64,000 nt of DNA, taken from assembly GCF_001746835.1 (NCBI RefSeq), contig NZ_CP016094.1, positions 4,045,501 to 4,109,500 on the forward strand, given 5' to 3'. This document shows positions 2,603-17,270 of the stretch, in pieces. Both the position numbers and the translations under genes were made by a program. The notes under the pieces were generated by a model. That model worked only from the letters and a program-made list of their open reading frames with translations. It did no database searches and had not been told where the DNA came from. Numbering within the stretch: the first letter of the stretch is position 1; every line of letters starts with the position of its first letter. The stretch comes from Lacunisphaera limnophila (GTDB taxonomy: Bacteria; Verrucomicrobiota; Verrucomicrobiia; Opitutales; Opitutaceae).

Positions 2603-3292
2603 ATGAAGAAAACCTCCCTTATTCTCGCAGCGCTCCTCGCGGGCGCTTCGCTCTCCGCCGACGAGGCCGCTCCCGCGTCCTATTCCGTCACCGTGGACTT
2701 CCCCTACGCGTCCAAGTACGTCTTCCGCGGCATCGAGTATGCCGAGGACGTCGTGCAGCCGTCCGTGAAGTTCACCACCGGTGACTTCTACGCCGGCGTC
2801 TGGAGCAGCCTGCCCCTCGACAAGGGCTACGAGGCCGAAGTCGATTACTACGCCGGCTACGGCTTCAAGCTCTCCGAGGGCCTGGCCCTCGACGTGGGCG
2901 CCACGATCTATCACTACCCGGGCCTGGATGGCGCGGGCGTCGATAAGACCACGTTCGAAGCCTACGCGGGCGTGAACGGCAGCGTCGGCGGCGTGAACCT
3001 CGGCCTGTACCTCTACCAGGACTTCGACCTCGAGGTCTTCACGGTCCAGGGTAACCTCGGTTACTCCATCCCGATCGACGACAAGGTCTCGATGAACATC
3101 TCGGCCTCCCTCGGCAACGCCAACCCGGATGCGGGCAGCGGCTACACCTACTACGGCGTCGGCGCCCAGTTCCCGTACAAGCTGACGGACAACACCACCC
3201 TCACGGGCGGCGTCAACTGGGCCTCGCACGACCTCAGCGGCGTCGAGGACAACCACGTCTGGTTCAACGCCGGCCTGACGGTCGCGTTCTAA
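2603..3292 (+). CDS. TorF-family putative outer-membrane porin (TIGR02001 type)
   Basis: 229 residues. The signal peptide ends near residue 19 (ASLSADEAAP). Next comes the family opening SVTVDFPYASKYVFRGIEY and alternating amphipathic beta strands, with the Y/F-rich blocks YYAGYGFKL, GLYLYQDFDL and YTYYGVGAQF. The protein ends in a C-terminal phenylalanine (GLTVAF), typical of BAM-assembled barrels. Family members occur in Proteobacteria and relatives as small outer-membrane proteins of uncertain substrate, and some lie beside glnK-amtB. Here it follows amtB-glnK and has its own sigma-54-like promoter. This suggests, without proving, a role in uptake of a nitrogen source. Confidence 0.85.
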   Translation: MKKTSLILAALLAGASLSADEAAPASYSVTVDFPYASKYVFRGIEYAEDVVQPSVKFTTGDFYAGVWSSLPLDKGYEAEVDYYAGYGFKLSEGLALDVGATIYHYPGLDGAGVDKTTFEAYAGVNGSVGGVNLGLYLYQDFDLEVFTVQGNLGYSIPIDDKVSMNISASLGNANPDAGSGYTYYGVGAQFPYKLTDNTTLTGGVNWASHDLSGVEDNHVWFNAGLTVAF

Positions 3293-3317
3293 TCAACGTC
3301 TGATCCTGCTTAAAACC

Positions 3318-3350
3318 AAGCCCGTCCCGCTCACGCGGGACGGGCTTTTT
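3318..3350 (+). terminator. Intrinsic terminator after the TorF-type porin
   Basis: A perfect 13-bp stem AAGCCCGTCCCGC (3318-3330) / GCGGGACGGGCTT (3335-3347) has a TCAC loop and a T5 tail. Confidence 0.93.
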
Positions 3351-3396
3351 CTTGGTCCGAGCCACCGCCGCGGCCCGAACACCATAACGCCTCAGA

Positions 3397-3424
3397 GGCG
3401 GGGTTCGGAGACCCCGCCCTACAG
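3397..3424 (-). repeat. GTAG-headed REP-like palindrome (family A)
   Basis: Read on the minus strand: CTGTAG followed by a GGCGGGG / CCCCGCC hairpin around TCTCCGAA. It is one of at least nine copies in this window, listed separately. All lie between genes. Confidence 0.75.
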
Positions 3425-3436
3425 GAAACAGGCCGA

Positions 3437-3462
3437 AACGCCCCCTTCAGTGAGGGGGCGTT
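3437..3462 (-). terminator. Hairpin downstream of the aminotransferase, possible operon terminator
   Basis: A perfect 9-bp stem AACGCCCCC / GGGGGCGTT with an 8-base loop begins a few bases beyond the stop of the last gene of the ilv-leu operon. On the minus strand only a short T run (TTTC) follows. It may therefore be a weak terminator or an RNA-stabilising 3' end. Confidence 0.5.
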
Positions 3463-3468
3463 GGCCCA

Positions 3469-4677
3469 TCAGGCCTTGGACCGGCTCCCCAGCGAGGCCA
3501 GCAGCTTCTCGATCTGGTCGCAGGCCAGGTTCAGCTTCTGCTCGTTGGCCGTGAAACAGGCCCGCACGTGGCCCTTGCCGGCGTCGCCAAAGGCCGTACC
3601 AGGCACCACCGCCACCTTGTGCTCCGTGAGCAGGCGGCGGGCGAACTCGCCCTCGTCCAAACCGGTCGAGGCGATCGACGGGAAGGCGTAGAACGAACCG
3701 CGCGGCAAGTGACAGACCAGGCCGGCCGCGTTGATGCGGCGCACAAAGAGGTCCCGGCGCTCGCGATAGCGATCGCGCATGAACTTCGTGGCGTCATCCC
3801 CCAGGCGCAGCGCCGCCAGGGCACCCTCCTGGCTGATGCTCGGGGCGCACAGCATCGAATACTGGTGCACCTTCATCATGGCCTCGATCAACGGGGCCGG
3901 CCCGCAGGCATAGCCGAGACGGAAACCGGTCATGGCGAAGGCCTTGGAGAAGCCGTGCAGCAGGAGCGTGCGCTCGCGCATGCCCGGCAGGCTGGCGATG
4001 CTCGTGTGCGTGCCCTCGAAGATCAGCTCCGAGTAGATCTCGTCGCTGATCACGATCATGTCCTTCTCGATCGCGAACCGCGCGATGCGCTCGAGCTGCT
4101 CCCGCGAGCAGACGCCGCCCGTCGGGTTGCAGGGCAGGTTCAGGAGGAGCAGCTTGCACCCCGGCTGCCACGCGGCCTGCAGGGCCGGGGCGTCGAGGGA
4201 GAATTGCTCGGCAGCGCTGGTGGCCACCGGCACGCCGACGGCGTGCACCAGGTCCACGGAGGGCGCGTAGGAGACATAACAGGGCTGGTGGTACATCACC
4301 TTGTCGCCGGGGTTAAGGAGCGAGCGCAGGGCTAGGTCCAGGCCTTCGGAGACGCCGACGGTCACCAGCACCTCGTCGTCGGGACGATAGCTGGTCTTGA
4401 AGTGGCTCTCGGCGTAGCGGCAGATCTCCTTGCGGAGCTCGGGCAGGCCCAGGTTCGAGGTGTAATGGGTCTTGCCCGTGTCCATCGCCGTTTTCACGGC
4501 GTCGCGGATGGGCTGCGGGGTGTCGAAATCGGGTTCGCCGATGCCGAGTGAGATTACGCCGTCGGTCTTCGCGACCAGTTCAAAGAAATCGCGGATGCCG
4601 GAGCGGCGCAGGCCGGCCACGTGACGCGCAATGAAGCGGGTCGTGTCGAGGGTCGGCTGGGATTGGGAGAGAGACAT
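3469..4677 (-). CDS. PLP-dependent aminotransferase, class I/II, last gene of the ilv-leu operon
   Basis: A 402-residue fold-type I aminotransferase. Visible signatures are LGIGEPDFDTP (residues 44-54), NLPCNPTGG (180-188), SDEIYSELIF (211-220) and the PLP-binding lysine K245 in HGFSKAFAMTGFRLGY. Substrate cannot be read from sequence. Relatives act on aspartate, aromatic or branched-chain substrates. It starts 30 bases after leuB, so co-transcription with the ilv/leu genes is likely. A role in the last transamination to Val, Leu or Ile, or in supplying aspartate, is therefore plausible but unproven. It is not the IlvE (fold-type IV) family. Confidence 0.92.
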   Translation of the reverse strand: MSLSQSQPTLDTTRFIARHVAGLRRSGIRDFFELVAKTDGVISLGIGEPDFDTPQPIRDAVKTAMDTGKTHYTSNLGLPELRKEICRYAESHFKTSYRPDDEVLVTVGVSEGLDLALRSLLNPGDKVMYHQPCYVSYAPSVDLVHAVGVPVATSAAEQFSLDAPALQAAWQPGCKLLLLNLPCNPTGGVCSREQLERIARFAIEKDMIVISDEIYSELIFEGTHTSIASLPGMRERTLLLHGFSKAFAMTGFRLGYACGPAPLIEAMMKVHQYSMLCAPSISQEGALAALRLGDDATKFMRDRYRERRDLFVRRINAAGLVCHLPRGSFYAFPSIASTGLDEGEFARRLLTEHKVAVVPGTAFGDAGKGHVRACFTANEQKLNLACDQIEKLLASLGSRSKA

Positions 4678-4707
4678 GGAGGAGAGAATTAGGTGGCCGT
4701 TTTGGCC

Positions 4708-7384
<2,677 letters not shown>

Positions 7385-7387
7385 GGG

Positions 7388-9004
<1,617 letters not shown>

Positions 9005-9026
9005 GGAGGGAAAGGTTTTCGGACTG

Positions 9027-9209
9027 TTAGCGTTGGGTGATAACGGGGGACGCAGACCGGAGCTTGCCGGCGGTCACCGGGCCGAAGGCCAGGTCACCCG
9101 CCGAAAGCTCCGCGCTAAGTCGCAGTCGGAAACCCGTCGCGCCCAAGCCCGGCACCGACCGCGCCCCGGGGGAGGCGGTGAGGGACAGGCGTTGGTCGCG
9201 GCTGGGCAT
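9027..9209 (-). CDS. Possible small protein (60 aa) between ilvC and leuA
   Basis: ATG at 9209 follows an AAGGAAG ribosome-binding-like sequence and ends with TAA at 9027, 22 bases before leuA. The product begins [20 protein letters not shown]. About 83 percent of codons end in G or C (my count), above the local average, which hints at real coding. It has no recognisable domain, membrane segment or leucine run. It could be an operon-embedded small protein, a translational coupler for leuA, or chance. Confidence 0.3.
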
Positions 9210-9229
9210 GAAACAAACTTCCTTCCGGC

Positions 9230-10240
9230 TTACTTCGAGATGACGACCGGGTTCAGGAACGGCATCATCGCGCGCAGCTTGGCGCCGACGACCTCGATCT
9301 TCTGGCCGCGTTCCTTGTTGCGGAACTTGGTCATGGTCTTGCGGCCATACTTGTTGTTCTCGTCGATGAAGCGCTTGGCGAACTTGCCGGTCTGGATGTC
9401 CTTGAGGATGGCCTTCATCTCCTTCTGCGTCTTCTTGGTGACGACGCGCGGGCCGGAGACGTAGTCGCCCCACTCGGCGGTGTCCGAGACGGAGTAGCGC
9501 ATGTAGTTGAGGCCGCCGCGGTACATCAGGTCCACGATGAGCTTCAGCTCGTGCATGCACTCGAAGTAGGCGATCTCGGGCTGGTAGCCCGCGTCGACGA
9601 GGGTCTTGAAGCCGGCCTTGACCAGCTCCGCGCAGCCGCCGCAAAGGACGGCCTGCTCGCCGAACAGGTCGGTCTCGGTCTCTTCCTTGAAGGTGGTCTC
9701 GAGCACGCCGGCGCGGGTGCAGCCGATGCCGCGGCCGTAGGACAGCGCGAGCTTCTTGGCGGTGCCGGTGGCGTTCTGGTAGACGGCGATGAGGCCGGGG
9801 ACGCCGCCGCCCTCCTGGAACACCTCGCGCACGCGGTGGCCGGGGGACTTCGGGGCGATCATGGCCACGTCGACGTTCTTCGGCGGGACGATGCCCTTGA
9901 AGCGGATGTTGAAGCCGTGGGCGAACATGAGCATCTTGCCGGCGGTGAGGGCCGGGGCGATCTCCTCACGGTAGAGGCGGGCCTGGACGTGGTCCGGCAC
10001 GAGCACCATGATGACATCGGCCCAGGCGGCGACCGTGGCCACGGGGCCGACGGTGAGGCCGGCCTTCTGCGCCTTGGCGACGGACTTGCTCTTGTCGGAG
10101 AGGCCGACGCGCACCTTCACGCCGCTGTCCTTCAGGTTAAGCGCATGGGCGTGGCCTTGGGAGCCGTAGCCGATGATCGCAACTTTCTTGCCGCGGATGA
10201 GCGCGAGGTTCGCGTCCTTGTCGTAGTAGATTTTAGCCAT
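9230..10240 (-). CDS. ilvC: Ketol-acid reductoisomerase IlvC (class I)
   Basis: 336 residues, the short class I form. Isomerises and reduces acetolactate or acetohydroxybutyrate with NADPH and magnesium in Val/Ile synthesis. The N-terminal Rossmann fold shows [13 protein letters not shown] (residues 25-37). The knotted C-terminal domain carries the metal-binding [14 protein letters not shown] block and [18 protein letters not shown]. It lies 42 bases downstream of ilvN and ends just before the small ORF that precedes leuA. Confidence 0.97.
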
Positions 10241-10282
10241 GGTAGTAGAGGATTGGGGATTTGAAATTTGAGATGAGGGGGA

Positions 10283-10843
10283 TCAGACGGACATCGAGAT
10301 GCCGGAGTTGTCGTGGGCGTGGTCGGTGACGGTGCGGACCTGCGGGGGCGCGGAGGAGACCGGCTCGTGGCCGCGGGCCATGGAGACGGCGCCGGTGCGC
10401 ACCATCTCGGCGATGCCGTAGGGGCGCAGGATCAGCTCGAACTTGGCGATCTTCTCGGGCGTGCCGGTGACCTCGGCGGTGATCGTCTTCTCATCGACGT
10501 CGACCACGCGGGCGCGGAAGACATCGACGAGCTGCAGGATCTGGGCGCGCGTGTCGGGCGTAACCTTGACCTTCACGAGGCCGAGCTCGCGGGTGAGCGA
10601 GGCCTTGTGGGTGAGGTCGTCCACGCGGAGCACGTTGACCAGCTTGTAGAGGTTGGCCTCCACGATGCGGGCGCCGGCCTCGGTGGTGTCGACGACCACG
10701 GTGAGGCGGGACACGCCAGGCTGGTCGGTGCCGCCGACCGTCAGCGAGTCGATGTTGAAGTTGCGGCGGCGGAAGAGCGAGGCGACGCGGTTGAGCACGC
10801 CGGGCACGTCTTCCACATAGGCGATGAGGGTATGTTTGGCCAT
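10283..10843 (-). CDS. ilvN: Acetolactate synthase small (regulatory) subunit
   Basis: 186 residues. The N-terminal ACT domain opens with HTLIAYVEDVPGVLNRVASL, followed by RRRNFNIDSLTVGGT. A second C-terminal regulatory domain spans roughly residues 85-165. It binds valine and activates the catalytic subunit encoded 12 bases upstream. The tail after residue 165 (SSAPPQVRT...) is an unusual extension. ilvH is an equally valid name for this family. Confidence 0.95.
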   Translation of the reverse strand: MAKHTLIAYVEDVPGVLNRVASLFRRRNFNIDSLTVGGTDQPGVSRLTVVVDTTEAGARIVEANLYKLVNVLRVDDLTHKASLTRELGLVKVKVTPDTRAQILQLVDVFRARVVDVDEKTITAEVTGTPEKIAKFELILRPYGIAEMVRTGAVSMARGHEPVSSAPPQVRTVTDHAHDNSGISMSV

Positions 10844-10855
10844 GACGGGAGGGGG

Positions 10856-12709
10856 TTAACGACGGGATTTGGCGGTTTTCTTGGCCGGGCGGGCGGACGC
10901 GGACTTGCCGCGGCCGGTGAGGGCTTTCGCCTCGACCTGCTTCTCGGTGAAGACGTTCGGCAGCGGCGAGGCGGGCATCTCCCACTCCTTGTCGGAGCCG
11001 GACTCGAGCATGACGTCCTGCTTCGGGCGGCGGATCATCTTGTCGAGGTCGGCGCCGGCGGGGACCATCGGGAACACCGAGTCCTCCTTCTCGACGACGA
11101 AATCGATGACGACGGTCTTCTTGTCCGCGAGCGTCTTGGTCACGGTGGCCTTGACGTCGGAGCGCTGGTTGCAGCGCAGGCCGCTGAGGCGGTAGGCCTC
11201 GGCGAGCTTCACGAAGTCGGGGCCCGTCATCGGGGTCGCGGCGTAGCGCTTGTCGTAGAAGAACTCCTGCCACTGGCGCACCATGCCGAGGAACGAGTTG
11301 TTGATGATGGCGACGTTGACCTTGATGCCTTCCTGCTCGGCCGTGGCCAGTTCGCAGGAGGTCATCTGGAAGCCGCCGTCACCGACGACCACCCAGACGT
11401 CCTTGTCCGGGCAGGCGAACTTGGCGCCGATGGCCGCCGGCAGGGCGAAGCCCATGGTGCCGAGGCCGCCGGAGGTGATGAGCGAGCGGGGCTCGTCGTG
11501 GCGGAAATACTGGGCCTCCCACATCTGGTGCTGGCCGACGTCGGTGACGACAATGGTTTCGCGCTTCTGCGTGAGACGCCAGATGTCGTTGATCACGTGC
11601 GCCGCGTAGAGGTGGCCGTTGTCCGGCAGGGTCTGGATGTCGCGCACGGCGGAGTCGCCACGGGCGGCCTTGATCGTGGTCCACCAGTCGGCGTGGTCGG
11701 CCTTCTTCACCTGGGGCTGGATCTCGGCGAGCACCTCGCGGAGGTCGCCGATGAGGGCGACGTCCACCGGGACGTTCTTGTTGATCTCGGTCGGATCGAT
11801 ATCGACGTGGATCTTCTTCGCGTTGAGGGCGTAGGTCTTGAGGTTGCCCGTCACGCGGTCGTCAAACCGCATGCCGAGGGCGATCAGGAGGTCGGCCTGC
11901 TGGATGGCCTCGTTGACCCAGGACTCGCCGTGCATGCCCATCATGCCGAGGTTGAGCGGCGACGAGGCCGGGATGGCGCCAATGCCGAGCAGCGTGGTGG
12001 TGATCGGGATGCCGGCGGTCTTCGCGAGCTTGAGGACTTCCTCGGTCGTGCCGGACTTGATGATGCCCTGGCCGGCGAGGATGAGCGGGCGCTTGGCCGC
12101 GTTGATCAGCTCGGCCGCGCGGGTGAACTCGGAGTCCGGCGCGCGGTGGTTCGGGCGGTAGCCGGGCAGCTTGGGCGCGGCGGCCTCCCAGTCGAACTCG
12201 GCGGTCAGCTGCTGCGCGTCCTTGGTGATGTCGACCAGCACGGGGCCGGGGCGGCCGCTCTTGGCGATGTAGAACGCCTCGCGGATGGCGCGGGCGATGT
12301 CACCCGGCTTGGTGACGAGGTAATTGTGCTTCGTGACGGGGAGCGTGACGCCGGTCACGTCGGTCTCCTGGAAGGCGTCGGTGCCGATCGCCTTGGACCC
12401 GACCTGGCCGGTGATGCACACGATCGGCGAGGAGTCCATCATGGCGGTGGCGATGCCGGTGACCATGTTGGTCGCGCCGGGGCCGGAGGTCGCGATGGCG
12501 ACGCCCACCTTGCCGCTCGCGCGGGCGTAGCCGTCGGCCATGTGCGTGGCGCCCTGTTCGTGGCGCACGAGCACATGGTGGATCTTCGGGTACTTGGTCA
12601 TGGCGTCGTAGGTCGGCAGGATCGCGCCGCCCGGGTAGCCGAACACGACGTCGACGCCTTCCTTCTGAAGGCATTCCCAGATGATTTCTGCGCCGGTGAG
12701 TTTTTTCAT
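10856..12709 (-). CDS. ilvB: Acetolactate synthase large (catalytic) subunit
   Basis: A 617-residue thiamine-diphosphate enzyme making acetolactate or acetohydroxybutyrate. N-terminal TPP-binding domain: VFGYPGGAILPTYDA with the catalytic Glu in VRHEQGATHMADGYARASG. Central domain: FDDRVTGNL, HVDIDPTEINKN. C-terminal TPP/Mg domain: VVGDGGFQMT...NVAIINNSFLGMVRQWQ. The C-terminus is lengthened by a Lys/Arg-rich tail (GRGKSASARPAKKTAKSRR). ATG at 12709 follows AGGA at a usable distance. It sits between ilvD and ilvN. Confidence 0.97.
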   Translation of the reverse strand: MKKLTGAEIIWECLQKEGVDVVFGYPGGAILPTYDAMTKYPKIHHVLVRHEQGATHMADGYARASGKVGVAIATSGPGATNMVTGIATAMMDSSPIVCITGQVGSKAIGTDAFQETDVTGVTLPVTKHNYLVTKPGDIARAIREAFYIAKSGRPGPVLVDITKDAQQLTAEFDWEAAAPKLPGYRPNHRAPDSEFTRAAELINAAKRPLILAGQGIIKSGTTEEVLKLAKTAGIPITTTLLGIGAIPASSPLNLGMMGMHGESWVNEAIQQADLLIALGMRFDDRVTGNLKTYALNAKKIHVDIDPTEINKNVPVDVALIGDLREVLAEIQPQVKKADHADWWTTIKAARGDSAVRDIQTLPDNGHLYAAHVINDIWRLTQKRETIVVTDVGQHQMWEAQYFRHDEPRSLITSGGLGTMGFALPAAIGAKFACPDKDVWVVVGDGGFQMTSCELATAEQEGIKVNVAIINNSFLGMVRQWQEFFYDKRYAATPMTGPDFVKLAEAYRLSGLRCNQRSDVKATVTKTLADKKTVVIDFVVEKEDSVFPMVPAGADLDKMIRRPKQDVMLESGSDKEWEMPASPLPNVFTEKQVEAKALTGRGKSASARPAKKTAKSRR

Positions 12710-12750
12710 AATCAGGTCCTGTGAGCTTGGGGTTGGATTTTAAAGGGGGA

Positions 12751-14421
12751 TCAGGTGGTGACCGCGCCCACCGAGGCGGAGGACACGGTGTTGGCGTACT
12801 TGGCCATGACGCCGCGGGCATAGCGCGGGGCCGGCGCCTGCCAGCCGGCCTTGCGGCGGGCGAGCTCGGCGGGGTCGATCTCGACCGACAGCTTGCGCGC
12901 CGGCACGTCGACCTCGATGAGGTCGCCTTCCTGCACGAACGCGATCAGGCCGCCGACGAACGCCTCGGGCGCCACGTGGCCGATGGAGAAACCGCGCGTC
13001 GCGCCGGAGAAACGGCCGTCGGTGAGCAGGGCGACCGAGTCGGCCAGCCCCTGCCCCGCCAGCGCGGCGGTCACGCCGAGCATCTCGCGCATGCCGGGAC
13101 CGCCCTTGGGGCCCTCGTAGCGGATGACGACGACGTCGCCGGCCTTGATCTGCTGCGCGTTGGCGGCGGCCATGGCGTCCTCCTCGTTGTTGAAGACGCG
13201 GGCCGGGCCCTTGAGTTTTTCGCGCGAGCTGCCGGCGACCTTGAGCACGCCGCCCTCCTCGGCGAGGTTGCCGCGGAGAATGACGAGGCCGCCGGTGGGC
13301 TTGAAAGGTTTGTCGGTCGGCCGGATGACCTGCTGGCCGGGGGCCTCGAAGGCGCCCGCGACTTCCGCGGCGATCGTGCGGCCGGTGACGGTCACGCAGT
13401 CCCGGTGGAGGTAACCGCCCTCGAGGAGGCGGCGCAGGAGCAGGGAGATGCCGCCCGCCTTGTGCATCTCGACCGCGGTGTAGAGTCCGCCGGGCTTGAG
13501 GGTGGCGATGGTCGGGGTCTTGCGGCAGATCTGGTCGAACTCGTCGATCTGGAGGGAGACGTTGGCCTCCTTCGCCAGCGCGAGCAGGTGGAGCACGGCG
13601 TTGGTCGAACCGCCCGAGGCGGCGACGGAAGCGATGGCGTTCTCGAACGCCGGGCGCGTCATGATCTGCGAGGGCTTCAGGTCCCGGCGGACGAGATCCA
13701 TGACGATCTCGCCGCAGCGGAAGGCGGCCTGGTTCTTTTCCGCGGCGGTCGCGGGGATGCCGTTGAGGCCGACGGGGGAGATGCCGATGGCCTCCATGAT
13801 CGTCGCCATGGTGTTGGCGGTGAACTGGCCGCCGCAGGCGCCCGCGGTGGGGCACGCGGCGTTTTCCACGCACTTGAATTCCTTGGCGTCGATCTTGCCG
13901 GAGCTGAACGCGCCGACCGCCTCGAACACGTCCTGCACGGTCAGGGCCTTGCCGTTGTGGTGGCCGTGATCGATCGAACCGCCGTAAAGCGCCAGGCCGG
14001 GGATGTCCATGCGGGCCAGGGCCATCATGACGCCGGGGTTGGTCTTGTCGCAGGAGGACAGACAGACGAGGCCGTCGAGGCTGTTGCCGCGGGCCACCAG
14101 CTCGATGGAGTCGGCGATCAGTTCGCGGCTGATGAGCGAGGTCTTCATGCCCTCGGTGCCCATCGTGATGCCGTCAGAAATGGAAACGGTGTTGAACTCG
14201 AGCGGGGTGCCCCCGGCGGCGCGCACGCCGGCCTTCACATGTTCCGCCAAGGCACGGAGATGGAAATTGCAGGGCCCGATTTCGGTCCAGGTGTTGGCGA
14301 TGCCGATCAACGGCTTGCTGAGGTCCTCATCGGTGAAGCCGACGGCTTTCATCATGGCGCGGGCGGGCGCGCGGCTGGGGCCTTCGGTGACGAGGTGACT
14401 GTGGCGTTTACCGGAATCCAT
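12751..14421 (-). CDS. ilvD: Dihydroxy-acid dehydratase IlvD
   Basis: A 556-residue iron-sulfur dehydratase producing the 2-oxo acids in Val, Ile and Leu synthesis. Cluster cysteines are in SSCDKTNPG and [15 protein letters not shown]-terminal motifs are [21 protein letters not shown] chose ATG 14421 ([19 protein letters not shown]). An upstream in-frame TTG at 14454 would add eleven residues of no family character. It is the first enzyme gene of the operon and follows the attenuator by about 90 bases. Confidence 0.96.
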
Positions 14422-14509
14422 GGGGAGAATGGTCAGTCGACCTTGCCGAAACAATTCCGGCAGGGCGAGAAATGGGTATTAAGGGTCTGCGTCATAACGG
14501 AGGGACAAT

Positions 14510-14591
14510 AAAAAAGCCGCCCCTTTTTTTGGGCGGCTTCATCTTTTTTTCTTAGTTCCTTTTAGGAGTTTGAGACTTTGGCGAGCCGCCC
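14510..14591 (-). promoter_or_regulatory. Transcription attenuator of the ilv-leu operon
   Basis: On the minus strand three mutually exclusive pieces are visible. Segment 2 is GGGCGGCT at 14591-14584, inside the last codons of the leader peptide. Segment 3 is AAGCCGCCC at 14539-14531. Segment 4 is GGGCGGCTT at 14522-14514, followed by six T residues (14515-14510). Segments 3 and 4 form a 9-bp terminator. Segment 2 can pair with segment 3 (GGGCGGCT/AGCCGCCC) to form an antiterminator. A ribosome stalled on the Val/Ile/Leu codons upstream would leave segment 2 free and allow transcription into ilvD. A ribosome reaching the stop at 14562 would let the terminator form. Confidence 0.85.
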
Positions 14592-14663
14592 ATGAGTGAG
14601 TGTGTCCACGGCAACAAGGGCCAGGACGACGGTAATAAGGGCAATGGCGACTACGGGGAACAT
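14562..14663 (-). CDS. ilvL: ilv operon leader peptide (33 aa, Val/Ile/Leu-rich)
   Basis: Too short for routine gene finders. ATG 14663 to TAA 14562 encodes MFPVVAIALITVVLALVAV, then DTLTHGRLAKVSNS. Of residues 4-19, eleven are Val, Ile or Leu. The stop lies 22 bases before the terminator hairpin described above, the geometry of E. coli ilv and leu leaders. Its role would be as a sensor of charged branched-chain tRNAs, not as a stable protein. The ribosome-binding site is weak. The name ilvL is given by analogy. Confidence 0.8.
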   Translation of the reverse strand: MFPVVAIALITVVLALVAVDTLTHGRLAKVSNS

Positions 14664-14682
14664 CGGTGTACGAACGGCGCGA

Positions 14683-14710
14683 ACCTGCGTATCGGCACAA
14701 TGCCTGTCAA
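14683..14710 (-). promoter_or_regulatory. Candidate promoter of the ilv-leu operon
   Basis: A perfect -35 hexamer TTGACA lies at 14710-14705 on the minus strand, 42 bases before the leader-peptide ATG. At 17-base spacing the -10 position reads CAGGTT, a poor match, so the exact start is uncertain. No other -35-like element is seen between thrA and the leader. Confidence 0.45.
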
Positions 14711-14730
14711 CCCTCAGTTTTAAAATCTTC

Positions 14731-14747
14731 GCCGGCAATACGCCGGT
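14731..14747 (-). terminator. Weak hairpin after thrA
   Basis: On the minus strand CCGGC / GCCGG enclose a 5-base loop, followed by GAAGATTTT. It lies about 35 bases after the thrA stop and before the ilv promoter. It may end the metX-thrA message, but stem and T tract are weak. Confidence 0.3.
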
Positions 14748-14780
14748 GCAGATGTAAAAACTCGCGCCGGCGGCCGGTGT

Positions 14781-17270
14781 TTAACCCCGGCCGCGGATGT
14801 TCTGGGCCAGGCGCAGGATATCGGCGAGCACGCCGGCGGCGGTGACCGCCCCACCCGCCCCCGCGCCGCGGACCACCATCGGGTATTCCTTGTAACGCTC
14901 GGTGTGGAAGGCGACGAAGGCCTCCGCCCCGCGCAGCGACGAGGCCGGGTGCGCCGTCTCGACGTCGACCGGGCCGACCGTGACCTTGGCGCCCGCGGCC
15001 CCGGGGGTGATGCGCGCCAGGTAGCGCGGCAGTTTGCCCTGGGCCTTGCTGGCGGCGACGCGCTGCGCAAACTCCGCGTCGAGCGCCGTGAGCGACTGCA
15101 TGAATTTCTCGGGATCGCTCTCCTTGAGATAGGACTCGGGCACGAAGGGCTTCAGCTCCACGTCAGTCAGGTCGAGGCGCAGGCCGAGTTCGCGGGCGAG
15201 GATCACGGCCTTGCGGGCCACATCGAGGCCGGACAGGTCATCGCGCGGATGCGGCTCGGTGTAACCCAGGTCGCGCGCCGTGCGGACGGCGACCGACAGC
15301 GGCTGACCCTGCGCGAGCTGGTCGCACAGGTAGCCGAGCGTGCCGGAAAACGCGCCCTCGATGGTGATCACGTGGTCGCCGGTGCGGACGAGATTCTTGA
15401 GCGTCTCGATCACGGGCAGCGCGGCGCCGACCGTGGTCTCGTAGTGGTAGGCGCGGAAATGTTTGCGGGCCTGGCCGAGCAAGCCGTCGCGCTCGGCCTG
15501 CGGGAGGGCGAGCGGCTGCTTGTTGGCGGACACGACGTTCACGCCCTGGTTGAAGGCGGCGAGGTAGAGCTTCTCCATGCCGGGGGCGGCCGAGCAATCC
15601 ACGAGCACCGGGTTGGGCAGCTGCGCCAGACGGCCGAGCAGCGAGATGACATCCTTGACCGCCTTGCCCTCCTCGATCGCGGACTTTTGCAGTTCCACGG
15701 CCTTGTCGGTGGAAAGGCCGTGCTCGTCGAACAGCACCCCGCCGCTCGAGCCGACGCCCACGAGGCGCACCTGCACGTCATGCTCGCGGCCGAGGGCCTT
15801 GTTCTGCTGGTCGATCTGCTTGAGCAGCGAGCCGCCGACCACGCCCTTGCCGAGCAGGAGCACGCTGATCTCGGTGTGCGAGAGGTTGAAGGCACCGTGC
15901 ACGGTCCGCACCGCCAGCGCGGTGTGGTCGGCGTCCACCACGCAGGAGATGCTGCGGGCCGACGCGCCCTGGGCCACGGCGCGCACATTGATGCCGGCCG
16001 CGCCAATGGAATTGAGGAAACGGCCGGCGACATTCGGCCGGCGCGCCATGTTCTCGCCGACGAGCGTGACGAGCGTCACGGGCGACAGCATCGGCTCGAT
16101 GCGCAGGTCGCCGGTCTGGATCTCGGGGGCGAGCACCTCGCTGATGCTTTGCTTGGCCTTCGGCATGTCAGACTCCGGGATCACGACCGAGAAGGACTGG
16201 CCGAGGGTGGACTCGGTGGTCATCCACACGCGGACGCCGGCCTCGCCGAGGGCCGCGAGGATGCGACCGCCGAGCGGCTTGCTCAGGCCGGTGCGGCGCG
16301 ACTGGACGCCGAGCAGCGCGAGCCGCTCTAGGCTGGTCACGCAGGTGGGACGGTTGGGATCGGGATTGCCAGTCGCATCGATGCGGGTGCCGGGCGCGGT
16401 GGGCTGGGTGGTGCTGCGGATGACCAGCGCGGCGCCGCACTCGCGGAGCGGGATGATGGTGCGCGGGTGGAACATCCGGGTGCCGAAATAGGCGAGTTCC
16501 AGCGCCTCATCATAGGAAAGGCGGTCGACCGGCGAGGCCTCGCGCACCAGCGCAGGATCGGCGGTCATCACCCCCAGCACGTCGGTCCAGACGGTCACGG
16601 CGCTGGCCTTGAGCAGACCGGCGACGAGCGTGGCGGTGTAATCGGAGCCGTTGCGGCCGAGGGTGGTCGTGTGGCCCTCGCGCGAACGGCCGATGAAGCC
16701 GGTGACAATCGGGACCTGGCCGGCGAGGCGGGGCAGCACGGCGGCGAACTTCTCCGCGGTCGCGGCCTTGTCCACCGTGGCGGCGCCGTGCGTGCCGTCG
16801 GTCACGACGAAGTCGCGGGCGTCCACCGGGATCGCGGGCACATTGCGTTCGACCAGGGCGCGGGCGAGGACGGTGACGGAGATGCGCTCGCCGACCGAGA
16901 TGATGGAGTCGAGGGTGCGCGGGGAGCACTCACGGGTCAGCTCGATACCCGAGAGCAGGCGCTCCACCGGGGTGAGGATCTCGTCGAGGTCGTGCTTGAA
17001 CCCTTTCTGACCCTGGCCGTTCAGCACGGTGCGGGCGGTGGCCGTGGCGAGCTCGCGCACCTGGGTCAGTTCACGCCGGGCCTGGCTGATGTTGCCCTCC
17101 TCGGCCGAACGGGCGCAGAGGATGAGCCAGTCGGTGGTGTCGCCGAGGGCGGAGACCACGACGGCCAGCGGACGCGGCGCGGCGGCGATGAGTTCCAGCA
17201 CCTTGGGCATGCGGCCCGTGGTGCCAACGGAGGAACCGCCGAATTTGTAGACCTGCCAAGCGTCGCTCAT
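14781..17270 (-). CDS. thrA: Bifunctional aspartokinase / homoserine dehydrogenase I
   Basis: 829 residues, matching ThrA length. N-terminal aspartate kinase opens with YKFGGSSVGTT. A middle ACT region (about residues 315-455) is expected to bind an amino acid effector, with the ACT phrase VTLVGENMARRPNVAGRFL. The homoserine dehydrogenase half starts at LLLGKGVVGGSLL (NADP-binding glycines) and includes the SANKQPLALP region and GAFSGTLGYLCDQL. I chose ATG 17270 (MSDAWQVYKFGG). It overlaps the metX stop as ATGA, so translation is coupled. Product homoserine feeds the MetX enzyme encoded upstream. Confidence 0.95.
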   Translation of the reverse strand: MSDAWQVYKFGGSSVGTTGRMPKVLELIAAAPRPLAVVVSALGDTTDWLILCARSAEEGNISQARRELTQVRELATATARTVLNGQGQKGFKHDLDEILTPVERLLSGIELTRECSPRTLDSIISVGERISVTVLARALVERNVPAIPVDARDFVVTDGTHGAATVDKAATAEKFAAVLPRLAGQVPIVTGFIGRSREGHTTTLGRNGSDYTATLVAGLLKASAVTVWTDVLGVMTADPALVREASPVDRLSYDEALELAYFGTRMFHPRTIIPLRECGAALVIRSTTQPTAPGTRIDATGNPDPNRPTCVTSLERLALLGVQSRRTGLSKPLGGRILAALGEAGVRVWMTTESTLGQSFSVVIPESDMPKAKQSISEVLAPEIQTGDLRIEPMLSPVTLVTLVGENMARRPNVAGRFLNSIGAAGINVRAVAQGASARSISCVVDADHTALAVRTVHGAFNLSHTEISVLLLGKGVVGGSLLKQIDQQNKALGREHDVQVRLVGVGSSGGVLFDEHGLSTDKAVELQKSAIEEGKAVKDVISLLGRLAQLPNPVLVDCSAAPGMEKLYLAAFNQGVNVVSANKQPLALPQAERDGLLGQARKHFRAYHYETTVGAALPVIETLKNLVRTGDHVITIEGAFSGTLGYLCDQLAQGQPLSVAVRTARDLGYTEPHPRDDLSGLDVARKAVILARELGLRLDLTDVELKPFVPESYLKESDPEKFMQSLTALDAEFAQRVAASKAQGKLPRYLARITPGAAGAKVTVGPVDVETAHPASSLRGAEAFVAFHTERYKEYPMVVRGAGAGGAVTAAGVLADILRLAQNIRGRG

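Follow-up and report, generated by a model that had tools for sequence, protein, structure and literature searches.

A predicted leader-peptide attenuator precedes ilvD in Lacunisphaera limnophila and its close relatives in the Opitutaceae

The stretch of the Lacunisphaera limnophila genome analyzed here (64,000 nucleotides, hereafter the window) carries a run of ilv and leu genes on its minus strand. The first structural gene is ilvD, encoding dihydroxy-acid dehydratase (12751-14421; NCBIfam TIGR00110 / NF002068). It is followed after about 41 nt by ilvB, the acetolactate synthase large subunit gene (10856-12709; TIGR00118), and then by ilvN for the small subunit (10283-10843; TIGR00119) and ilvC for ketol-acid reductoisomerase (9230-10240; TIGR00465). 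The genes leuA, cimA, leuB and an aminotransferase gene (3469-9004, minus strand) represent a possible continuation of the operon. The minus-strand gene thrA (aspartate kinase/homoserine dehydrogenase) ends upstream of the leader described below, at 14781. A preliminary description of the region had assigned these names, and NCBIfam matches over the cut-offs bear them out, except for the aminotransferase, whose match falls below the cut-off. The gap between ilvC and leuA is 226 nt, and a simple scan found no minus-strand terminator within 3000-14300. We predict from the sequence that the transcription unit probably reaches beyond ilvC into leuA-cimA-leuB-aminotransferase.

The genes ilvD, ilvN, ilvC, leuA and that for the aminotransferase each start behind pyrimidine-rich DNA in which a Shine-Dalgarno sequence is not evident by eye. 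In the window, a TTG start lies in frame 33 nt upstream of the ilvD ATG, and an ATG is found by reading at the same in-frame distance in three relatives (L003, L014 and L084). Such an upstream start is missing from L004 and L006, also by reading, and we therefore prefer the conserved ATG.

Between thrA and ilvD we identified a minus-strand ORF (14562-14663; ATG at 14663, stop codon ending at 14562) for a 33-residue peptide, MFPVVAIALITVVLALVAVDTLTHGRLAKVSNS, whose sequence was read and whose coordinates were rechecked. It contains eleven branched-chain residues (V4, V5, I7, L9, I10, V12, V13, L14, L16, V17 and V19), and both of its Ile codons are ATT. Codons 25-27 contain GGGCGGCT (14591-14584), the 5' strand of a putative antiterminator and here called segment 2. 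It is the exact complement of AGCCGCCC (14538-14531), or segment 3, which is common to the antiterminator and to an intrinsic terminator (14510-14540) in which it pairs with segment 4. The terminator stem (14540-14513) has 10 pairs, 7 of them GC, and the T6 tract occupies 14515-14510. On rereading, the peptide with its eleven Val/Ile/Leu codons at residues 4-19, the complementarity of late leader codons to the 5' arm of the terminator and the terminal T6 all proved to be exactly as first described. A putative promoter (14682-14710) comprises TTGACA (14710-14705), a spacer of 17 nt and CAGGTT (14687-14682), which we infer to be the -10 element; a consensus scan of the leader region called no promoter. 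This promoter would imply a 5' untranslated region of about 12 nt in the window. Behind the terminator lies a second small minus-strand ORF of 20 residues, uORF2 (14433-14495), whose stop is 11 nt before the ilvD ATG.

The comparison covered 27 distinct loci, all with such a leader: besides that of the window, 19 named ones (L002-L020) and 7 others (L083, L084 and L087-L091); the exact duplicates L085 (of L003) and L086 (of L004) were left out. The closest named relatives are metagenome-assembled genomes called Lacunisphaera, Oleiharenicola, Didemnitutus, Opitutaceae or Verrucomicrobia, with IlvD identities of 81-93% (L002-L020). By an ORF filter that we devised with the sequences already in view, each of the 27 loci has an ORF of 32-34 codons that begins with ATG and includes 11-15 Ile, Leu or Val residues, an in-frame GGGCG, and a terminator with a T tract. 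GGGCG is invariant in the alignment. TTGAC is found 39-50 nt before the leader ATG at every locus, the start sites themselves being predicted, and TTGACA is invariant in the 17 sequences of clade A (17 loci, window included). Clade B comprises the other 10. Between the clades the peptide is largely different, and mainly the Ile/Leu/Val block and a Gly-Arg encoded by GGGCGG are kept. The loci are related, and counts of loci and codons are therefore not counts of independent events. The preliminary description had interpreted the region as an attenuator and had named a lack of conservation in related genomes as a refutation. In 27/27 loci the leader frame is retained together with its control codons, the strand for the antiterminator and the terminator, which supports the attenuator interpretation.

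The choice of control codons is distinctive. With nine genes of the window as reference, Ile is encoded by ATT in 69/82 cases in the 27 leaders versus 13/224 in the genes, Leu by CTT in 60/157 versus 15/397, and Val by GTA or GTT in 23/106 versus 9/366. Ala is encoded by GCC in 80/120 cases, like in the genes (357/531). The Ile and Leu control codons are thus often rare among the genes of this window. Such control codons may act by slow decoding or may keep the RNA unpaired.

The terminator is paired in 100% of 234 alignment cells (26 distinct rows), with one pair changing from AU to GC in 8 rows. The antiterminator formed by segments 2 and 3 is paired in 98.1% of 208 cells and has no double changes. 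The preliminary description had suggested that the complementary segments might co-vary; they do not, being nearly invariant, and since there is no covariation the support for the antiterminator comes from conservation. Its drift would be hindered by its position in the coding frame and by the strand that is common to two helices. In clade A, RNAalifold pairs CCGTC of segment 1 with GGCGG of segment 2 around a hairpin (codons 13-20 in the window). Segment 1 (14604-14632, minus strand, codons 11-20) thus consists of CCGTC (14632-14628) and the enclosed hairpin (14627-14604). This structure is paired in 97.0% of 237 cells with 6 cells changed on both sides (17 sequences). None of 500 shuffles scored as high (kinship ignored), and sliding destroys the pairing. 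Clade B has a smaller hairpin with no varying standard pair. Compensatory changes are therefore found in the terminator and the first hairpin, and the antiterminator is invariant. Folding of the region had been proposed as a check; the minimum free energy structure of the window sequence alone picks a pairing of segments 1 and 2 (GUCGCC, codons 5-6) that differs from the conserved one, and we rejected it. In static folds of ten leaders without a ribosome, the 1:2 hairpin does not win over 2:3. The window RNA folds no better than shuffles without segment 4 (z 0.44), and has a z of -2.00 with it.

We folded the leaders up to the terminator loop while masking the ribosome footprint codon by codon, for ten leaders and then for all 27, assuming a static fold and a footprint that reaches 12 nt to the 5' side of the P codon and 12 nt to the 3' side of the A codon. 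The antiterminator was available while the A site was on the control codons, with a mean probability per leader of 0.94-1.00, and it was lost with the ribosome from codon 20-25 on. Ile, Leu and Val make up 312/557 codons (56%) before the modelled occlusion point and 33/319 (10%) after it. The last control codon lies 1-4 codons before this point in 27/27 leaders, and for each of the ten clade B leaders the distance is 1 codon. When no ribosome was included, the antiterminator was favoured before segment 4 exists (0.93-1.00 in nine of the ten leaders folded, 0.39 in L009). Once the ribosome is at the stop codon of a clade A leader, segment 2 is no longer covered (probability 0.97-1.00, 17/17). 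Because the antiterminator wins without a ribosome, and because the clade A stop codon lies beyond segment 2, termination must rely on timing.

Given these analyses, we consider it very probable (roughly 90%) that a ribosome-mediated transcription attenuator for branched-chain amino acids lies before ilvD, and attenuation of ilvD-ilvB-ilvN-ilvC in this manner is well supported by the features described. Comparison of sequences could show the leader frame, the control-codon block and its end, the complementary segments and the terminator. In the proposed mechanism, RNA polymerase would start a few nucleotides upstream of the leader ORF, with a ribosome following. When enough charged Val, Leu and Ile tRNA is present, the ribosome would pass codon 20 and cover segment 2, leaving segment 3 to pair with segment 4, and transcription would stop at the T tract. 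When charged tRNA is too scarce, the ribosome would stall on the control codons (residues 4-19) and block the pairing of segments 1 and 2. The 2:3 helix would then form and the terminator could not, such that ilvD-ilvB-ilvN-ilvC, and probably leuA-cimA-leuB-aminotransferase, would be transcribed.

A covariance model built from the 27 loci (R1) was searched against 252 genomes of the family with stricter filters, under which weak matches are lost. Matches of at least 88 bits, part of which are the sequences that the model was built from, occur in 32/252 genomes, all in three genera, and 220/252 have no such match. They were found in 20/21 genomes of the window's genus, 11/13 of genus g40 and 1/2 of genus g28; the single miss in the window's genus is a genome that is 69% complete. 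The position before ilvD was checked for the 27 loci only. Among 286 genomes sampled from the class there was no further R1 match of at least 88 bits. Identity to the window proteins is 79-93% for IlvD in g1, g28 and g40 and 77-92% for IlvB in g1, g10, g28 and g40, and in the other Opitutaceae with a match it is mostly 46-50% for IlvD (one 37%) and 41-46% for IlvB. The R1 leader is confined to genera with high IlvD and IlvB identity and therefore travels with a particular ilv operon.

The g10 genome (G009) has no IlvD match at E 1e-100. It encodes a branched-chain leader of other sequence (MNFVVVSLILGLVLVIIGTHDQLDGKEVRVTR; L202:1136-1234) directly before an ilvB that is 77% identical. The terminator of this leader, GAGCCGCCC...GGGCGGCTC, shares the GCCGCCC/GGGCGGC stem.

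We also inspected more distant loci. Of 20 loci of other Opitutaceae with distant IlvD, 4 are truncated and the remaining 16 were read; those with Ile/Leu/Val-rich ORFs by a loose filter (L093, L100, L109 and L111) are not comparable by eye. Scanning 650 nt upstream of distant IlvB at 25 loci (L203-L227, with a shorter flank in L212) gave ORFs in L211, L216 and L222 and terminator-like stems in L205, L208, L211 and L219. L211, the only locus with both, was rejected, as its ORF reads as the end of the upstream gene. A box, TGTCATA, was seen by eye before TTGACA in many relatives and was set aside; the genome of the window contains no TGTCATA-N12..18-TTGACA. We did not find TGTCATAA near the window leader, nor did we see a leader before thrA, trpE or hisD of this genome.

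The window IlvD has its higher identities (59-68%) to proteins from groups such as Thermoflexales, Acidobacteria and Poribacteria, compared with 46-50% to most other Opitutaceae, which suggests that the operon may have been exchanged or may be paralogous. In two acidobacterial loci (L026 and L031), short ORFs with RISLLTPVLL or RISLLTSIRL, followed by GATGATGGCC and GGCCATCATC repeats, precede ilvD. This arrangement may be an independent attenuator, judging from its sequence. Nothing like it was seen by eye in 330 nt upstream of ilvD at 11 other acidobacterial loci.

A search of the complete genome (4.2 Mb) gave 3 sites for the pattern GGCGG-N30..60-CCGCC-N3..16-GGCGGNTTTT and 1 for a reversed control pattern. 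The three sites are the ilv leader, a site before the genes for 3-deoxy-7-phosphoheptulonate (DAHP) synthase and pheA, and one other (L196), which reads as an ordinary operon end and was rejected as an attenuator. The Phe/Tyr leader of this genome lies outside the window (G000:C1:1951613-1951755 (+); L155:614-755) and encodes MIFTAGFFSFTFAGYFAPQSRGGVSPSNP. It carries the same GGCGGC/GCCGCC switch as the ilv leader, and is followed by DAHP synthase and then by chorismate mutase/prephenate dehydratase (pheA). The best NCBIfam models for this DAHP synthase are below their cut-offs, and Pfam PF00793 is over its cut-off.

Examination of 40 stretches around weaker R1 matches revealed 26 Phe/Tyr-rich leaders and 6 leaders before a DUF6538-like gene. 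The other 8 stretches (L182, L183, L185, L188-L191 and L193) contain no convincing leader. The 26 Phe/Tyr leaders come from seven genera, this genome included, and a model built from Phe leaders (R2) added an eighth, g4. A DAHP synthase-like start follows the leader in 25/26 (not in L168), and TTGAC lies 36-41 nt before all 26, where the start sites are again predicted. Phe and Tyr account for 186/421 codons before the modelled occlusion point and 1/256 after it, and the control codons end 1-2 codons from this point in the 26 leaders. Phe is encoded by TTT in 91/132 cases in these leaders versus 12/123 in genes. R2 matched 29/384 genomes of the class at E 1e-5 or better; the 15 matches of at least 60 bits come exclusively from the family, and ilv leaders account for some of the weaker matches. 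For the Phe leaders, a candidate 8-bp hairpin within the control region was set aside: it is paired in 66.8% of cases, but sliding it by +2 gave 66.3% with more double changes.

The leaders before the DUF6538-like gene all belong to genus g40. Three of them (L156, L157 and L192) resemble the clade B ilv leader (VVVILFAPIAGRLSHT) and three (L158, L187 and L194) have a Thr-containing variant (ATSKAITRTLTGAL), in each case with terminators. All six precede a gene whose small product (107 aa in L156 and L158) has DUF6538 similarity below the cut-off. In L156, a tRNA-Thr(CGT) gene lies downstream. If the ilv, DAHP synthase-pheA and DUF6538-like leaders form one group that shares a GGCGGC/GCCGCC switch, the switch may have been copied and re-coded for other amino acids.

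uORF2 was compared at the 25 of 27 loci with an anchored ilvD start (all but L009 and L015). It starts at most 25 nt from the T tract in 25/25 (23 ATG, 2 TTG). Its stop lies 10-12 nt before the ilvD ATG in clade A, except in L084, where it overlaps; in clade B it overlaps the ATG. Shuffled letters produce this layout with an ATG in 5% of cases on average, by a criterion that was set after the loci had been seen. Of the unanchored loci, L009 fits the layout by eye and L015 does not, having 13 codons and an end about 30 nt before ilvD. The uORF2 peptides are unlike between the clades, but the layout is alike. Ile, Leu and Val make up 8.7% of uORF2 (43/495), compared with 15.8% in shuffled sequences and 16-20% in the two alternative frames; in the nine genes the share is 22.8%. 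A Shine-Dalgarno sequence was not seen by eye before ilvD.

We infer that uORF2 would load ribosomes on the ilvD start on read-through RNA, and it may thereby couple read-through to translation. Leader genes of many phyla have been proposed to promote reinitiation at a distance of 10-11 bp (PMC4833913), and the uORF2 stop lies at a like distance in clade A except in L084. That proposal is a statistical one over whole phyla, with Verrucomicrobia unnamed in its main text, whereas we describe one conserved ORF behind an attenuator. We tentatively suggest, with rather more doubt than confidence, a two-ORF attenuator in which uORF2 is translated only on read-through RNA, with reinitiation at ilvD independent of a Shine-Dalgarno sequence, and which is one of a set of related, near-leaderless attenuators using one GGCGGC/GCCGCC switch for ilv, DAHP synthase-pheA and, in one genus, a DUF6538-like gene. 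If this is true, enzyme synthesis would stay possible when Ile, Leu and Val are scarce, as uORF2 is poor in them.

Other explanations of the leader region are conceivable. The peptide is very hydrophobic, and non-synonymous changes per site are fewer than synonymous ones (0.16 versus 0.28 in clade A, 0.24 versus 0.35 in clade B), as might be expected of a functional small membrane peptide, with any regulation exerted by another route. We consider this very improbable given the divergence of the peptide between clades outside the Ile/Leu/Val block and the Gly-Arg, the use of rare codons for the control residues, and the existence of Phe/Tyr versions. Less probable still is that the terminator merely ends the thrA transcript and that the hydrophobic ORF is a chance frame. 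The position of thrA, upstream on the same strand, would allow this, as would the scan of 14300-14900, which called no other minus-strand terminator; yet ORF, GGGCG, TTGAC box and terminator occur together at 27/27 ilvD loci, the g10 genome has a branched-chain leader before ilvB, and similar elements with Phe/Tyr codons precede DAHP synthase.

The least probable alternative is that ilvD is preceded by a ligand-binding riboswitch, a T-box or a ppGpp element, although control of ilvB by ppGpp riboswitches is reported for some bacteria (PMC10272879). Here, no Rfam match reached its gathering threshold, T-box and riboswitch models as well as leader families (Thr_leader, Phe_leader and others) included. 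A permissive scan gave weak scores, such as 26.6 bits for STnc240, the best, 19.3 for Phe_leader and 19 for Thr_leader, each against a cut-off of 55, and what is conserved is an ORF and a terminator. Ribosome-mediated attenuation thus remains our preferred reading.

The enterobacterial ilvGMEDA (ilvL), leu and thr leaders consist of a short ORF rich in codons for the product, a mutually exclusive antiterminator and terminator, and pathway genes downstream, and use rare control codons. Work by Carter in 1986, cited in PMC1183508, reportedly concerned rare Leu codons of the leu leader in Salmonella. The leader described here resembles these systems in its codon-rich ORF, exclusive antiterminator and terminator, pathway genes and rare control codons. 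It differs in belonging to another phylum, in matching no Rfam leader family at the cut-off and in its predicted 5' untranslated region of about 12 nt. It differs also in the conserved second ORF before ilvD and the gene order ilvD-ilvB-ilvN-ilvC-leuA-cimA.

Leaders of Corynebacterium, Mycobacterium and Streptomyces likewise have an ORF rich in branched-chain residues and a terminator before acetolactate synthase genes, but they precede ilvB operons and not ilvD (PMC1262725, PMC10272879, PMC13236596). The Mycobacterium tuberculosis ilvB1NC leader is given there as 166 nt (PMC13236596). Also located before ilvD is the leucine-rich attenuator of the ilv-leu operon in Staphylococcus aureus, which likewise has a leader ORF with a terminator and an antiterminator; this Firmicutes system responds to Leu and is combined with CodY, whereas the control codons here are a mixture of Val, Leu and Ile (PMC5794164). 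A 2010 survey stated that amino-acid leader-peptide systems were known only from Proteobacteria and Actinobacteria, and added Firmicutes (PMC2965389). The preliminary description knew of no such system in this group; correspondingly, none of the matches listed from the open-licence PMC literature described leader-peptide attenuation of amino-acid operons for the Verrucomicrobiota, and two listed papers that name the phylum or Akkermansia concern only ermB and E. coli HisL or MgtL.

If our reading is true, amino-acid attenuation by a translated leader enters the Verrucomicrobiota, and the branched-chain and phenylalanine pathways are apparently both controlled in this way in one genome. The two clades, with re-coded peptides and the same geometry, serve as a natural experiment that can show which features an attenuator has to retain. 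The mechanism as such is classical, and the novelty lies in finding it here, in its completeness and in its layout.
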